DNA of 64,000 bases from the NCBI GenBank assembly GCA_021324975.1, contig JAJPIA010000139.1:1-64000 (forward strand), read 5' to 3'. A program made the translations under genes and the position numbers. The notes beneath the pieces were generated by a model. That model had not been told where the DNA came from. It was given only the letters and a program-made list of their open reading frames with translations, and ran no database searches. Source of the stretch: Bacillota bacterium (GTDB lineage Bacteria > Sysuimicrobiota > Sysuimicrobiia > Sysuimicrobiales > Segetimicrobiaceae). Positions 6,700-12,263 of the stretch are shown here, piece after piece. Positions within the stretch are counted from its first letter, which is position 1; the number at the start of each line of letters is the position of its first letter.

Positions 6700-6885
6700 A
6701 TGAATGGGCAGTTCATTCCGCTCGGCCCCTGCAAGTTCCTGCTTGCCGCCCATCTGACTGCATCCGCTGGCTGGATCGGTGCGATCATGGCTTACCTGGC
6801 GCTTGGCATCGCCGCTCGTACAAGCCAAGATGCTCAGACGGTGCGTGCGGCGTGGATCGCGCTTTTGACCTCTCAGACCATATAG
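6700..6885 (+). pseudogene. N-terminal fragment of an integral membrane protein
   Basis: From ATG 6700 the frame reads FIPLGPCKFLLAAHLTASAG, WIGAIMAYLALGIAA and QDAQTVRAAWIA. This is like the first two helices of the roughly 150-residue membrane proteins with an 'LTAH-T-S-GW-GA' opening. After 61 codons it stops, just as the end of the opposing flavin-reductase gene begins (6873). The remaining helices are missing. The junction probably marks the left edge of the heavy-metal island. Confidence 0.55.
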
Positions 6886-8225
6886 CTGATATCCCCTGAG
6901 ACGGAGGGATAAGCGTACAAGACGTGCTTTACGTCACTCGCCTTCACTCCCGCGTGCATCGCCAGCGCGAATAGGTTGATGACATCATCGGCGTGGGGAC
7001 CCAAGAAATGGGCGCCGAGGATGCGATCGGTTTCCTTTTCAACGAGGACCTTGTAGCTTGCGAACCGGTTGCCGATGCGCCGCGATGCGTACCAGTCGGA
7101 GACGTCTTCGTGCTTGACAGTGAATTGCAGGCCCTGCTCCCTGGCCGAATCTTCGCGGAGTCCCAACGCCGCGAGCGGAGGAATCGAAAAGACCACGGTC
7201 GGCACTGCGCTGTAGTCCGGCCGCCGATGGTTCCCCTGTAGAAGATTGGCCGCGATCACCGCGCCGTCGTAGCCGGCCACCGGAGTAAGACGCAAGCCGC
7301 CGGAGGCCGCGCTGTCCCCGCCCGCATAGACCGCCGGATTGCTGACACTTTGCAGGTAGTCGTTCACAACGACGCCGTGTTCATCGAACTGGACGTCGCC
7401 CCGCGCCAGATCCAGGTCATCGATCTCCGGCACCCGTCCCGCGGCATGGACGACGCAATCCGTCTCCCACGCGAGCGATTCCCCGGCCCGTCCGGCGTGG
7501 ACAATCAGCACCCCGTTCCGCCGCTCCACAGCCTGAACGGCGGCGCCGAGCTCGACGGCGATCCCGGCTTCGGCGGTGGCCGCCTGCCACTGCTCGACGA
7601 GATCGGGATCGAAGCCTTCGAGCGGGCGCGTGCCGCGATGGACGATTCGGACCTCCGCACCCGCTCGGGCCGCGATGTGCGCGAATTCGGCCGCGATGTA
7701 GCCGCCGCCAACAAAAGCGATTCGCTTGGGCAGCGCGTCCAACTCGAGAAACTGCTCGCTGCTCGTAAGATATTCTTGTCCACGGATCCGCAGGGCGCGC
7801 GGGCGGGCGCCCGTCGCGATGACGATGTGCCGGCCGCTGAGCGTCTACTCGCCCACCCGGATCGTCTGGGCATCCACAAATCTTGCGAGCCCATGGAACG
7901 TGGCTACGCCGGCGTGGTGATAGCCTTGCTCGCGGTCCTGGGGGACCGGCTCGGTAAACGTACGCTTGAAGCGAATGAGCGCTGGCCAGTCCACATGCAC
8001 GCGTTCGCCGGCGACGCCGCGGCCCTGCATGCGCCGGTACCAATCGAGGAGGTCGGCGGCGCCCACCAGCACTTTCTTGGGGTCGCACCCGCGGAGCGCA
8101 CAGGTGCCGCCGTAGGGCCGTTTATCAACGATGGCGACCGTCCATCCCGCCCTGCGGGCGCGGTAGGCCGGCGCCGCGCCGGCGGCTCCGGTCCCGATGA
8201 CGAGGAGATCGACGGTTTGGGTCAT
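6873..8225 (-). pseudogene. MerA/glutathione-reductase-like FAD disulfide reductase with in-frame amber stop
   Basis: From ATG 8225 (GGAGG 8 bases upstream) the protein has the Rossmann FAD motif GTGAAG (residues 11-16), the redox-active pair C42-x4-C47 in GGTCALRGCDPKK, an NAD-binding VGGGYIAAE and the C-terminal dimer domain ending AYPSVSGDISYMV. Codon 127 is TAG (7845-7847). The frame is otherwise intact for 450 codons, and sense sequence continues directly after it (TLSGRHIVIATGARPRALR). There is no N-terminal heavy-metal-binding domain and no vicinal C-terminal cysteine pair, so this is not a canonical Hg(II) reductase. It is either a recent nonsense pseudogene, a sequencing error or a read-through gene. 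Confidence 0.8.
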
Positions 8226-8247: not shown

Positions 8248-8859
8248 CTAGCGGGCATGCTGAACGAACGACAGGATCTGATCCATCGTTGCGTTAGGCG
8301 CCCCGCCGATCGCCCGGATGATGCCGTTCCGGTCAATGAGGAAGTAGATATCCACGTAGCCTTTAGGATCGTAGGTGAAGCTTAGCTCTTTGGAGGCCTC
8401 GCCCCACGTCCAGGCGGAGGATGACCACGCGGGCCCGGCATCGGTCCGGGCCACCTCCCGCACCGAAGGCCCAGGGTATCCGAGGTTTCCATAGAGCCGG
8501 AGCTGAATCGCGTGTAACCCCGCTCGGTCAAGTTGTTGGATATGCTCGGCAAGCGCCGCGGTGCCCGCCCGACAGGTGTCGCACCATGTAGCGAAGAGCC
8601 ACAGCATCACCGGTCGCCCGCGGAACTCCGAGAGCCGATGCACCGTGCCCTGTATCGTCACGAACGAGGCATCAGGCGCCCGACCGCCCACCTCGACCTG
8701 CGCGATTGGGCCGGGCGCGGCTACGCGGGGAGAGGCGGCGGCCGTGAGTCCCAGCACTGCGATGCCCATCGCGAAAGCCACGCGGGACCGCGTGCGGAGA
8801 GCGCGCGGGCGACGTGCGTCCCGTAAACGTTCAGACTTGGGCGGGCTCTTTCGTAGCAT
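8248..8859 (-). CDS. TlpA/ResA-like membrane-anchored thioredoxin-fold protein
   Basis: The 203-aa protein has a basic N terminus, one membrane anchor or signal segment (about residues 27-44) and a thioredoxin fold with the active site W92-C-D-T-C96. The 'VEVGGRAPDASFVTIQG' entry and the late 'YFLIDRNGIIRAIGG' strand are typical of TlpA proteins. It should act outside the membrane as a disulfide reductase, or supply thiols. It sits between the flavin reductase and the CC-motif membrane proteins, and its start overlaps the previous gene by 29 bases. A role in keeping metal-binding cysteines reduced is an inference. Confidence 0.82.
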   Translation of the reverse strand: MLRKSPPKSERLRDARRPRALRTRSRVAFAMGIAVLGLTAAASPRVAAPGPIAQVEVGGRAPDASFVTIQGTVHRLSEFRGRPVMLWLFATWCDTCRAGTAALAEHIQQLDRAGLHAIQLRLYGNLGYPGPSVREVARTDAGPAWSSSAWTWGEASKELSFTYDPKGYVDIYFLIDRNGIIRAIGGAPNATMDQILSFVQHAR

Positions 8860-9424
8860 CCAGGCGTCCCCCTTTCCGGGTGAGCGTACAGCTTGTCGCG
8901 ACAGTGCTCGCTGCCAGATACAGAGACAGCAGCAACAGCACGATGGCGGTCACCAAGGACACCATCTGGAAGCGGGCTATTCCGCCTTGGATGCGGCCGG
9001 CAAGCCCAAAAATCTGGACGGTGGATCCCCCAAGAGCCGCGAGCACCGAAGGAACAAGCGAGGTGCAGCACACGCTGCTCGGTACCACGCTCGCAAGCAC
9101 GGCGCCAACGCTCAAGACGGCGCCCCGCTGGCGGGCCGAGGTGCGAAAGCCGTAGACGTTCACGGTGATGGTGAGGCTCAGCAGCGCGGCCAGCACCGCA
9201 GAGCACGCCGCCAGATCGCCAGTCAAGTACCGCAGCGCGAGGAATCCGACCGCTCCACCGGTGTACGTGCTGGGAAGCGTCACCAGGTAGAACCCAAGGA
9301 TGCCGAGGAACAGCACCAGGGCGAGCCCGCGATAGCGCTGGCCCCGGAGCACCAGGGCGACCGTGGGGACCAGGGTGCTTGCCGAGGTCCGAATTCTATC
9401 GTGACCCGCCCGTCCCGCGTTCAT
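8831..9424 (-). CDS. multi-helix membrane protein with vicinal cysteines, heavy-metal island
   Basis: The 197-aa protein has about five hydrophobic helices. A conserved-looking CC pair (residues 119-120, PSSVCCTSLVPSVLAALGGS) sits at the mouth of a helix, reminiscent of metal-relay cysteine pairs in MerT/MerC-type Hg(II) transporters, although the overall protein is not one I recognise. ATG 9424 overlaps the stop of the upstream gene as ATGA, so the two are translationally coupled and may form a complex. Metal transport is inferred from context. Confidence 0.6.
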   Translation of the reverse strand: MNAGRAGHDRIRTSASTLVPTVALVLRGQRYRGLALVLFLGILGFYLVTLPSTYTGGAVGFLALRYLTGDLAACSAVLAALLSLTITVNVYGFRTSARQRGAVLSVGAVLASVVPSSVCCTSLVPSVLAALGGSTVQIFGLAGRIQGGIARFQMVSLVTAIVLLLLSLYLAASTVATSCTLTRKGGRLDATKEPAQV

Positions 9425-9738
9425 CGCGGACGGCCGCCAATGCCGTCGGGGACGGTTGAGCGCCCGCCGGGAGGACGCTTCGCGACCTCCGGGATCTGCG
9501 CGAACGAGGCCGCGCAGCGACACGCTCGCCGCCGCCGGACCAGCACACCGGTGATGATCACGGCGAGCACACCGAGCCCGACCACGGCCGGGACGCCCGA
9601 TCCGGGAACCGCGGCGCCGAGTCCCATCGTCGCCAATACGGCGACGAGCACCGGCCCCGCGCAACACAGAGTCAACGCTCCCACCGCAGCCAGTGCCGGC
9701 CAAAACAACGTCCCGCTCTTATGCTCTGGTTGCATCAT
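9421..9738 (-). CDS. MerT/MerF-like two-helix membrane protein
   Basis: A 105-aa protein with two helices. The first contains C25-C26 in LTLCCAGPVLVAVLATMGLG, like the first-helix CC pair of Mer transporters. A cytoplasmic CRC motif follows helix two, comparable with the second cysteine pair of MerT/MerF. The tail is proline- and arginine-rich. The first gene below the ArsR regulator, it is coupled to the next membrane gene by a 4-base overlap. Likely role: bringing Hg(II) or another soft metal to a cytosolic thiol. The family assignment is tentative. Confidence 0.6.
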   Translation of the reverse strand: MMQPEHKSGTLFWPALAAVGALTLCCAGPVLVAVLATMGLGAAVPGSGVPAVVGLGVLAVIITGVLVRRRRACRCAASFAQIPEVAKRPPGGRSTVPDGIGGRPR

Positions 9739-9774: not shown

Positions 9775-10134
9775 CTAGATCCACTCCGGACCGATTCTTC
9801 GGCAGCTGGCCAGATGATCGCACCGTTCGTCGGACAGACCCTTCGAGAGCGCCAGAAGATCGGCAACGCGGGGGTCGGCCACACGGTACACCATATGGCG
9901 CCCCTGCCGCAGGGACGTCACGAACCGGCACCACTTCAGGCACGCCAAGTGGTTTGAGACCCGGCTTCGCGGTGCGCCGGTGATCGAGATGAGCTCCGCG
10001 ATCGTGCGCTCTCCCTTGAGGAGGGCCTCGAGCATGCGGAGGCGCGTGGGATCTCCGAGGACCCTGAAGTACCGGGCTCGGGCGCTCAGGGCCTGTGCTG
10101 GCGCACACGCGTCACGCAGGCGGACCGATCTCAT
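9775..10134 (-). CDS. ArsR/SmtB-family metal sensor, CmtR-like
   Basis: The 119-aa winged-helix repressor has a recognition region reading PRSRVSNHLACLKWCRFVTS. C65 and C69 are spaced as the two helix cysteines (57/61) that bind Cd(II)/Pb(II) in mycobacterial CmtR. C105 and C111 in the tail are candidates for the third ligand (CmtR C102). Such proteins leave DNA when metal binds. The ATG lies exactly at the predicted transcription start of its own promoter, so the mRNA may be leaderless. It divides the island into two divergent arms and probably represses both. Confidence 0.88.
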   Translation of the reverse strand: MRSVRLRDACAPAQALSARARYFRVLGDPTRLRMLEALLKGERTIAELISITGAPRSRVSNHLACLKWCRFVTSLRQGRHMVYRVADPRVADLLALSKGLSDERCDHLASCRRIGPEWI

Positions 10135-10137
10135 GGA

Positions 10138-10169
10138 TTGACATTAACAGGTTATCCTGTTAGAGTCAA
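10138..10169. promoter_or_regulatory. overlapping divergent promoters sharing one ArsR operator
   Basis: Plus strand: TTGACA (10138-10143), 17-base spacer, TAGAGT (10161-10166). Minus strand: TTGACT (reverse of 10164-10169), 17-base spacer, TAATGT (reverse of 10141-10146). A perfect inverted repeat, TAACAGG-TTAT-CCTGTTA (10145-10162), fills the spacer of both. A repressor bound there would shut both arms of the island. The minus start point falls at about 10134, on the ArsR ATG itself. Confidence 0.8.
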
Positions 10170-10200: not shown

Positions 10201-10287
10201 ATGACGACCAACGGCCCCGACATTGACCGCTACTGGGAGGCCCTCGCTGACGCTGTGCCGGTGTGGTATCAGCGCGTAGTCAGTTGA
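10201..10287 (+). CDS. 28-codon small ORF at head of merB arm
   Basis: ATG 10201 has a near-ideal ribosome-binding site (GGGAGGAGCTCG just before it) and is the first start codon after the divergent promoter. The peptide, MTTNGPDIDRYWEALADAVP then VWYQRVVS, resembles nothing I know. It ends about 60 bases before the MerB-like start. It may be a small protein, a leader peptide or the stump of a lost gene. Confidence 0.45.
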   Translation: MTTNGPDIDRYWEALADAVPVWYQRVVS

Positions 10288-10348
10288 GATGCCGGAATCT
10301 GTGCAACGAATGCCTCGCCAACATCGATGGCAACCTGGAGAGATCCGT

Positions 10349-10999
10349 ATGATGAACCGAGATGACCGAGTGCGCACCGCGATCTTGCGCCACGCGCTCC
10401 GCGCGCGGCCGATTAATCGCGAGCCGCTCGCCGCCGAGACGAGGCTCACGCCCAAGGATGTCGAGGAGGCGCTCGGCGCGCTCCACGAGGTCGGAGCAAT
10501 CTACCTTCGCGACGGAGCCGTCGTCGCCGCCTACCCCTTCTCTTTCGTGCCCACGCTGCATCGCGTGATCATTGCCGGAGTCACGACCTATGCCAATTGT
10601 GCCGTCGACGCTCTGGCCGTGCCCCCGATGGTGGACGAATCCGCACAGGTGTCGTCGGCGTGCGGTCACTGCGGAGTCCCCGTAACGGTAGCCATGCGGG
10701 GCGGCCGAGTCGTCGAAGCCCAGCCCGCTGCGCCGGTGATCTTCCATCCGGACAGGGATTGCTGCGCCCCGGGACCGGCGGTCTTGACGCGCTGCCCGCA
10801 TATCCAGTTCTTCTGCGACCACGACCACGCCGCGCGCTGGCGAGACACTCATCGCGAGCTCCGCGGCGCCTTGCTGGAGCTTGCCGACGCCGCGGCGTTC
10901 GCGGGCCGGCATTTCGACGCGGCCATCCGCGCCGTCCGCGAGGCCGGGGATGACCACTCGCGTCGCTCCCGCGCCGCCGACAGGGGTGGCGGTCTTTGA
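10349..10999 (+). CDS. MerB-like alkylmercury lyase family protein
   Basis: The 216-aa protein has an N-terminal winged-helix part (LTPKDVEEALGALHEVGAIY) and the MerB catalytic core: C84-x2-D87 in YANCAVDALAV and C149 in TRCPHIQFF. These match the Cys96/Asp99/Cys159 triad of MerB in identity and spacing. It also has extra cysteines (SSACGHCG at 104-109, DCCAPG at 138-142) that could bind a metal. ATG 10349 was preferred to 10289 because GGAGAG precedes it. MerB enzymes protonate the carbon-mercury bond of organomercurials. This divergent paralogue may have another substrate. It is followed by merR on the same strand. Confidence 0.82.
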   Translation: MMNRDDRVRTAILRHALRARPINREPLAAETRLTPKDVEEALGALHEVGAIYLRDGAVVAAYPFSFVPTLHRVIIAGVTTYANCAVDALAVPPMVDESAQVSSACGHCGVPVTVAMRGGRVVEAQPAAPVIFHPDRDCCAPGPAVLTRCPHIQFFCDHDHAARWRDTHRELRGALLELADAAAFAGRHFDAAIRAVREAGDDHSRRSRAADRGGGL

Positions 11000-11084
11000 T
11001 GGTTCGCGCCAGCGCTCGCTCATCGGGGAAGAGCCGCGCGACGGGTGCCGCACGCGATTTTCACAACGATGGGAGGGCCGTGAC

Positions 11085-11519
11085 ATGAAGGATGCAGGCC
11101 CGATGCGTATCGGTCGCCTCGCGCGGCGTACCGGTGTGTCTGTCAAAACGCTTCGTTTCTATGACTCGCGAGGGCTCCTGTTCAGCGCCGGCCGCACCCC
11201 GGCCAACTACCGCCTCTTCCCCCAAGCGGCCATCATGTGCGTCGAGACGATCCGGACGCTGAAGGCCGCTGGGTTTACGATTCGGGAGGTACAGGAGCTC
11301 GCGGCGGCACACCGTGCCGGTGGCGACCCGAACGTGGCGGTGCGGCGGAACTTGGAGCAGGTCCTCAAACGTCTCACTCACAAGGAGACCGAGCTTCGGA
11401 CGCAGATCGCGCGCCTCACGGCTCTTCTCCGCGACGTGCGGGTTCTCCACTGCGCGCAACCCGCGCCGACTCGTTCCAGGCCGGCGGCCTCAGCGCACCT
11501 GACGGCATCCGCCTCTTGA
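11085..11519 (+). CDS. MerR-family transcriptional activator
   Basis: The 144-aa protein has the MerR N-terminal HTH (MRIGRLARRTGVSVKTLRFY, then DSRGLL), a coiled dimerisation helix (about 85-120) and a short tail. GGGAGG lies 9 bases before the ATG. It has only two cysteines, C52 and C123, so the three-cysteine Hg(II) site of classical MerR is not present in its usual form. Its stop codon lies inside a MerR-type promoter (11516-11547) that drives the next gene, merB. It is probably transcribed from the ArsR-controlled plus-strand promoter, giving a two-step circuit. Confidence 0.88.
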   Translation: MKDAGPMRIGRLARRTGVSVKTLRFYDSRGLLFSAGRTPANYRLFPQAAIMCVETIRTLKAAGFTIREVQELAAAHRAGGDPNVAVRRNLEQVLKRLTHKETELRTQIARLTALLRDVRVLHCAQPAPTRSRPAASAHLTASAS

Positions 11520-11547
11520 CCCTCCCGCAATGGGGAGGCCGTATGCT
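11516..11547 (+). promoter_or_regulatory. MerR-type promoter with 20-base spacer upstream of merB
   Basis: TTGACC (11516-11521) and TATGCT (11542-11547) are 20 bases apart. That is too long for normal sigma-70 recognition and is the hallmark of MerR-activated promoters. A perfect dyad, CCTCCC-GCAATG-GGGAGG (11521-11538), lies inside the spacer. The neighbouring MerR gene is the obvious activator. The dyad looks closer to CueR/ZntR-type sites than to the classical mer operator. Confidence 0.78.
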
Positions 11548-11600
11548 CCGACCGAGGCGGGACAATGATAACACGATCCCCCGCCTAGGAGGAAGCAACG

Positions 11601-12263
11601 ATGCTAAAGCCCGGAACAACGGCTGGTGCAGAATCACTGGAGCGGGCCGTGCGTCAAACCGTCGCGACGATCCGGCACATTGAGGGATATGAGTTGATTC
11701 CACACGTGTGCCGCTTGCTCGGCGAAGGCGCCCCGGTATCGGTTGATCGGCTGGCCGCGACCGTGGGATGGCCTGTGGAGCGGGTGCGCGAGACCCTACG
11801 CGCGCATCCGGCTGAATGGGGCGAGCAAGGCCGGCTGGTCGGACTTGGGTTGACGCTTCGGCCGACCCCGCACAAGTTCACGTTCGAGGGTCGGACCTTG
11901 TATGGCTGGTGCGCATCGGACACGCTCATGTTCCCGGTGCTTCTCGGCAAGTCGGGGCTCATCGAGTCCGTCTGCCCGGCCACCGGCAAGCCTGTCCAGG
12001 TGAGGGTCACCTCGGATCGAGTGGACTCCGCAGACCCGCGCGGGGCCGTCGTATCGGCCGTGCGCCCGGATCGTCGAGTGGAGAACGTCCGAACCGATAT
12101 TTGTAACCTGGGCCACTTCTTCAGCTCACGCGAGGCGGCCGCGGCGTGGCTCGAAGCCAATCCGCAAGGCATGCTCCACACGGTCGAGGAGGATTTCGAA
12201 ATTCACCGCCGGGTGGCGGAGCACCAAATGGGCTGGTCGGCATGCGGGGGAACGGCGTGCTGA
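11601..12263 (+). CDS. merB: organomercurial lyase MerB
   Basis: The 220-aa protein has an N-terminal winged-helix-like domain (about 15-75) and a catalytic core with C104-x2-D107 in YGWCASDTLMFP, CPATGKPVQV, and C168 in DICNLGHFF. These are the Cys96/Asp99/Cys159 triad and signature blocks of MerB (EC 4.99.1.2). It cleaves organomercurials to Hg(II) and a hydrocarbon in the cytosol. A GGAGG site precedes ATG 11601, and the MerR-type promoter is 54 bases upstream. The product Hg(II) would normally go to MerA, but the only reductase-like gene nearby is interrupted by a stop. Confidence 0.93.
   Translation: MLKPGTTAGAESLERAVRQTVATIRHIEGYELIPHVCRLLGEGAPVSVDRLAATVGWPVERVRETLRAHPAEWGEQGRLVGLGLTLRPTPHKFTFEGRTLYGWCASDTLMFPVLLGKSGLIESVCPATGKPVQVRVTSDRVDSADPRGAVVSAVRPDRRVENVRTDICNLGHFFSSREAAAAWLEANPQGMLHTVEEDFEIHRRVAEHQMGWSACGGTAC

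Follow-up and report, generated by a model that had tools for sequence, protein, structure and literature searches.

The 64-kb window, i.e. the whole stretch of DNA that was analysed (64,000 nucleotides of a soil bacterium), likely carries a broad-spectrum mercury-resistance locus of the Streptomyces/Rhodococcus plasmid type, in which a divergent MerB-family protein sits in the merA slot and expression is under nested control. An ArsR/SmtB-family repressor gene (positions 9775 to 10134, minus strand) is divergent from a plus-strand row composed of the divergent MerB (lyase 1, 10349 to 10999), a MerR-family regulator (11085 to 11519) and a canonical organomercurial lyase MerB (lyase 2, 11601 to 12263). 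Most likely, the locus is a nested operon, with lyase 2 reached by read-through from the ArsR-controlled promoter as well as from a MerR promoter, rather than by a strict relay. The novelty is the divergent MerB in slot X; the wiring itself, ArsR / X - MerR - 20-bp-spacer promoter - merB, is already known. As a conserved two-regulator module, it raises two testable questions, namely the signal to which the second regulator responds and the reason for the separate control of merB.

The sequence-only reading had known of no described mer locus with such wiring. This did not hold, as the arrangement ArsR / merA - MerR - elongated-spacer promoter - merB was found in Streptomyces, Rhodococcus and Gordonia. 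The arsR gene was divergent from merA - MerR - merB on plasmids of S. longwoodensis, Rhodococcus ruber, Streptomyces NBC_00637 and Rhodococcus WAY2; the same merA-first layout, with an unannotated MerR and also with a TTGAC box, was observed in R. oxybenzonivorans and Gordonia hongkongensis. The gaps between merA and MerR in these Streptomyces, Rhodococcus and Gordonia relatives were short (17-46 bp), which suggests that the two genes are co-transcribed. The MerR and lyase 2 of the window were 38-53% and 37-44% identical, respectively, to their actinobacterial counterparts. The words "second regulatory gene" stand in the title of a paper on Streptomyces CHR28 (Ravel et al. 2000, J. Bacteriol.). 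In this strain, which we take to have the arsR / merA - MerR - merB order itself, the gene is reported to lie between merA and merB.

Compared with the loci of the CHR28 type, of S. longwoodensis and of Rhodococcus, the window likewise has an ArsR-type repressor gene transcribed away from the first gene, a second regulator of the same MerR branch directly before merB, which comes last, the same elongated-spacer promoter with a -35 box containing the MerR stop, and the same arm of a CC-motif protein and a thioredoxin behind arsR. In contrast, the first gene encodes a divergent MerB here and is merA there, the arm of the window has no CcdA, and the ArsR operator, a TAACAGG dyad, differs from the intergenic motifs of the actinobacterial loci. 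As a first gene, merA was absent from the locus; lyase 1 stood in its place, and a canonical merA was located on contig 88 of the same genome.

The exact order ArsR-MerB-MerR-MerB was observed only here. It was absent from 43 genomes of the phylum and from the plasmids inspected, and a scan of a genome collection with the lyase 1 alignment returned eight loci, none with this order, an absence that is weak evidence given the narrow peptide patterns used. A search with PF03243 across the same 43 genomes revealed no second same-strand tandem pair. The order is unusual in its divergent MerB, and the novelty claimed for the wiring is lost to the loci with merA first. Two PF03243 matches on contig 23 of another genome (G021) look like a single broken gene.

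The first switch is an ArsR-family protein with CmtR-like cysteines. It matched Pfam HTH_5 and passed the NCBIfam HTH_metalloreg cut-off, and its best match in the PDB was 2jsc (Rv1994c/CmtR), the Cd/Pb sensor of M. tuberculosis. As in CmtR, a CxxxC motif was present in the recognition helix (C65-x3-C69), together with a C-terminal cysteine (C111), and these three residues were invariant in relatives; the score remained short of that of the curated CmtR equivalog (65 against 150 bits). Identity to the ArsR proteins of actinobacterial mer plasmids ranged from 35 to 51%.

The predicted ArsR operator is a perfect dyad, TAACAGG-TTAT-CCTGTTA (10145 to 10162), overlapping a sigma-70-like promoter, TTGACA-17-TAGAGT (10138 to 10166, plus strand; 10/12 in the scan), that serves lyase 1 and probably merR too. 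Reading the dyad stretch on the minus strand gives an opposing arsR promoter, TTGACT-17-TAATGT (10141 to 10169), with a similar layout in genome G023, so that a single predicted operator can shut both directions. The -10 box of this promoter ends 6 bases ahead of the arsR ATG, and the arsR transcript is probably leaderless. The TAACAGG-N4-CCTGTTA dyad occurred once in the 4.4-Mb genome, where no further ArsR target with the exact operator was found. It recurred in two other species, separating arsR from lyase 1 in G023 and, in G028, standing upstream of a row composed of arsR, CC protein, lyase 1, thioredoxin and MerA-like gene, and it was degenerate in G025. Lyase 1 was linked to ArsR in G025, G023, G028 and G013, and, since the dyad is kept in G023 and G028, this link can be regarded as conserved within the bacterial family. 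The proposal that lyase 1 and merR lie under an ArsR-type promoter was therefore supported: operator and promoter were both located ahead of lyase 1, and no other plus-strand sigma-70-like promoter was detected upstream of merR.

The ArsR promoter is separated from lyase 1 by about 150 bp of additional DNA (10201 to 10348). This stretch, which is missing in the relatives G025 and G023, holds a 28-codon ORF preceded by a strong GGAGG, and a shifted frame within it gives CRNLCNECLAN. The ORF may correspond to a broken small Cys protein or to a leader peptide.

The second regulator (11085 to 11519, plus strand) exhibited a MerR-family helix-turn-helix (PF13411, 60 bits; PF00376, 51 bits) and passed none of the MerR, CueR, CadR or ZntR equivalog cut-offs (curated score, 49 against 151 bits). 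Among phage proteins, only distant matches to it were found. When compared with the mercury site of classical MerR (Cys82, Cys117 and Cys126), it lacked a cysteine in the place of Cys82 as well as the C-terminal pair; C52 and C123 were the only cysteines present. The whole branch lacks the classical site; the one cysteine that this MerR has in common with it, C52, is located in the DNA-binding half. That MerR switches on lyase 2, as put forward in the sequence-only reading, was not supported as a mercury response, since this MerR has no known metal ligands.

The elongated-spacer promoter itself, with a MerR-type dyad ahead of lyase 2, was confirmed. The site, TTGACC-20-TATGCT (11516 to 11547, plus strand), has a spacer within the 19-20 bp range and contains a predicted 6-bp dyad, CCTCCC-N6-GGGAGG (11521 to 11538), centred as in classical mer promoters. 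It was the only such site on either strand of the window, and 40 Markov-simulated sequences of 64 kb contained no example. The predicted operator was present as a single copy in the 4.4-Mb genome, with no further MerR target carrying the exact sequence. Nothing similar was found upstream of merR. A consensus scan, which misses non-sigma-70 promoters, gave no sigma-70-like promoter in the lyase 1-merR interval either, and an independent sigma-70 promoter for merR was rejected on this result.

The -35 box of the lyase 2 promoter overlaps the merR stop codon. In all six loci with an intact MerR frame (L047, L057, L060, L062, L064 and the window at 11516 to 11521), belonging to two phyla, the stop codon TGA formed bases 2-4 of TTGACC, the -35 box. 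Spacer length was 20 bp in five of the six and 22 bp in Streptomyces NBC_00637, and the centre of the dyads fell between bases 14 and 15; the actinobacterial -10 boxes were weak matches (3 of 6). The module combines this promoter built into the merR stop codon with a MerR branch without known mercury ligands.

In the nested operon that we propose, the CmtR-like ArsR would, when mercury is absent, occupy the single dyad and keep the arsR arm, as well as the transcript of lyase 1 and merR, shut. Binding of mercury, or of another thiophilic metal, to the ArsR cysteines would release the repressor and open both arms, and lyase 1 and the MerR-family protein would be made. Acting at its unique 20-bp-spacer promoter, MerR would then yield more of the canonical MerB, added to that obtained by read-through, and the Hg(II) freed by the two lyases would pass to the canonical MerA of contig 88 for reduction. 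Lyase 1 and merR are presumably co-transcribed, although the 85-bp gap between them, longer than in most relatives, counts against this. A weak terminator-like stem was observed at the end of lyase 1 (10972 to 10991), and such sites were fewer than expected by chance. No convincing terminator was found across lyase 1 - merR - lyase 2, and read-through is therefore possible.

The relay from ArsR to MerR that had been read from the sequence fits the promoter map: no recognisable sigma-70-like promoter separates lyase 1 from merR, the ArsR operator is found only before lyase 1 and the MerR operator only before lyase 2, and the layout recurs with merA as the first gene. In its strict form, however, where ArsR release produces lyase 1 and MerR and the Hg(II) released by lyase 1 then activates MerR as the sole switch of lyase 2, the relay appears doubtful. 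Read-through is expected to reach lyase 2, as there is no terminator between merR and this gene; moreover, the MerR branch does not have the Hg(II) ligands of classical MerR, and promoters of non-sigma-70 type escape consensus scans. It is also conceivable, but unlikely, that this branch acts as a second-tier regulator without classical mercury sensing, and that ArsR - X - MerR - merB loci operate as a relay or delay in which the cell engages in organomercury cleavage only once the first gene has been made. If so, the first gene would be merA, its place being taken here by a lyase that differs in substrate range, and the -35/stop overlap would couple merR, at its end, to the promoter that follows.

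The presence of two MerB-family proteins, both with the Cys/Asp/Cys triad, was borne out by PF03243 matches and by the aligned residues. Lyase 2 (220 aa) exhibited both PF03243 and HTH_15, the helix-turn-helix of classical MerB, and passed both NCBIfam MerB cut-offs (213 against 200, and 204 against 193). Lyase 1 (216 aa) scored 108 bits against PF03243, for a cut-off of 27, and its nearest solved structure was MerB2 (5c17; E = 7e-18). Its triad, C84/D87/C149, aligned with the catalytic Cys96/Asp99/Cys159 and was invariant among seven aligned proteins, as were C105 and an extra cysteine, C156. C105 corresponds to the classical Cys117 position and was unchanged in close relatives. An AlphaFold model of lyase 1, built from four sequences, reached a pLDDT of 85 and gave 11 structure matches at E ≤ 0.001, to MerB only, with TM values from 0.57 to 0.73. 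Lyase 1 is a probable organomercurial lyase.

Over 114 alignment columns, the two lyases were 30% identical. A tree built with 27 MerB-family proteins placed lyase 1 together with the ArsR-linked members from the same phylum and with actinobacterial lyases fused to a thioredoxin, and lyase 2 in the canonical clade, nearest to actinobacterial MerBs (support for the placement of lyase 2 within the clade, 86/84). Because the clades are separate, the lyases are not recent duplicates, and a recent duplication was ruled out; they are better regarded as old homologues, and the description of lyase 1 as a paralogue of lyase 2 was abandoned. The divergent, ArsR-linked clade of lyase 1 enlarges the set of MerB candidates. 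To our knowledge, substrates have not been assayed for any member of this clade. Four of the actinobacterial relatives of lyase 1 (L030, L031, L032 and L034) had about 110 thioredoxin-like residues at the N-terminus, and in these proteins the classical Cys117 position was occupied by Asp or Ala.

The genes behind arsR form a minus-strand arm. A small membrane protein with a CC motif (9421 to 9738) is homologous to the "hypothetical protein" adjoining arsR in actinobacterial mer loci (31-38% to L057, L060, L061 and L064); it matched MerE weakly and is probably involved in mercury uptake. The next gene (8831 to 9424) encodes a membrane protein of unassigned family, for which a homologue was observed directly 3' of merA and a redoxin gene in Acidiphilium pACMV1 (L069, 4001 to 4351). 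These data suggest an undescribed mer-associated membrane protein. The arm also comprises a TlpA/ResA-like thioredoxin-fold protein (8248 to 8859), assigned by Pfam and NCBIfam, and, according to profile matches, a MerA-like disulfide oxidoreductase without the C-terminal Cys pair of MerA (6873 to 8225). The latter protein showed 46.7% identity, across 450 residues, to the product of the gene that follows merB on M. abscessus pMAB23, and 29-32% identity to that of the arm gene of R. ruber, R. oxybenzonivorans and WAY2. Its gene is interrupted by an in-frame TAG (7845 to 7847), and would be either a pseudogene or the result of a MAG/assembly error. Behind arsR in most of the S. longwoodensis, R. 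ruber, NBC_00637 and WAY2 loci, we found a CC-motif protein, a thioredoxin and CcdA, with a MerA-like oxidoreductase in the Rhodococcus loci. The canonical MerA of contig 88 scored 510 bits, and its gene adjoins that of a second MerR, which is 73% identical to the MerR of G003 and has its own 20-bp-spacer promoter. On this contig (L051), merR - merA are located behind a TTGACCTTAAACCCGG operator that resembles the one of the merB-merR-merA operons in G003 and G013.

Some features of lyase 1 point away from a role in organomercury cleavage. The protein scored below both NCBIfam MerB cut-offs (equivalog, 88.6 against 193 bits; exception, 80.2 against 200 bits) and matched the SaoL profile weakly (52.8 bits for a cut-off of 140). 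In addition, C156 is an additional invariant cysteine, and the ArsR is nearest to the Cd/Pb sensor CmtR. Lyase 1 could accordingly be a metal-handling or other organometal enzyme of MerB fold, as has been proposed for SaoL, within an ArsR-run response to Cd/Pb or other metals, leaving merR-merB as the only mercury module. We consider this improbable. The complete catalytic triad and C105 are invariant among close relatives, MerB was the sole fold matched by the model, the ArsR and the arm genes are those of mercury loci, and lyase 1 in G028 is co-stranded with arsR, the CC protein, thioredoxin and the MerA-like gene. A fortuitous or decaying combination of two mer fragments, unrelated and functionally uncoupled, which might be suggested by the TAG in the MerA-like gene, the extra stretch with its small, possibly broken ORF upstream of lyase 1 and the unique gene order, is very improbable, as the arsR, lyase 1, merR and lyase 2 frames are intact, with a normal third-position G+C (0.75-0.81), both operators are intact and the -35/stop overlap is conserved between phyla.

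Of 272 mer operons surveyed, all but two had merR or arsR, and only five had more than one merB (PMC3466566). The mer locus of S. lividans 1326 comprises an ArsR-family (ArsR-type MerR) repressor and two divergent transcripts, with merAB (PMC3466566, PMC5312570). It thus shares with the broad-spectrum locus proposed here the repressor family and the divergent transcripts, and has one MerB. We know of no MerR-family second regulator described for this locus.

On Pseudomonas K-62 pMR26, merR1...merB1 and merR2-o/p-merB2-merD are located about 1 kb apart (PMC3737084); as in the window, each of the two lyases has its own regulator and operator, but both regulators are MerR. Three lyases are known in Bacillus (PMC8261052, PMC6920998), where TnMERI1 has the order merB3-merR...merA-merR2-merB2-merB1 (PMC6920998). 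This transposon resembles the window in its several unlike MerB proteins, the nearest solved structure to lyase 1 being also named MerB2, and differs from it by its MerR regulators and the absence of ArsR from the mer module.

In G013 (13_1_40CM_64_14), a locus on contig 6 (L022) combines, like the window, the two types of lyase with the two classes of regulator, over a span of no more than 4 kb. Its organisation is different, with merB - merR - merA divergent from CC/thioredoxin/CcdA - arsR - lyase 1, and its MerR carries metal cysteines, unlike that of the window. Finally, the elongated-spacer promoter of Nocardioides JS614 faces two small genes, followed by a merB of the lyase 1 type.
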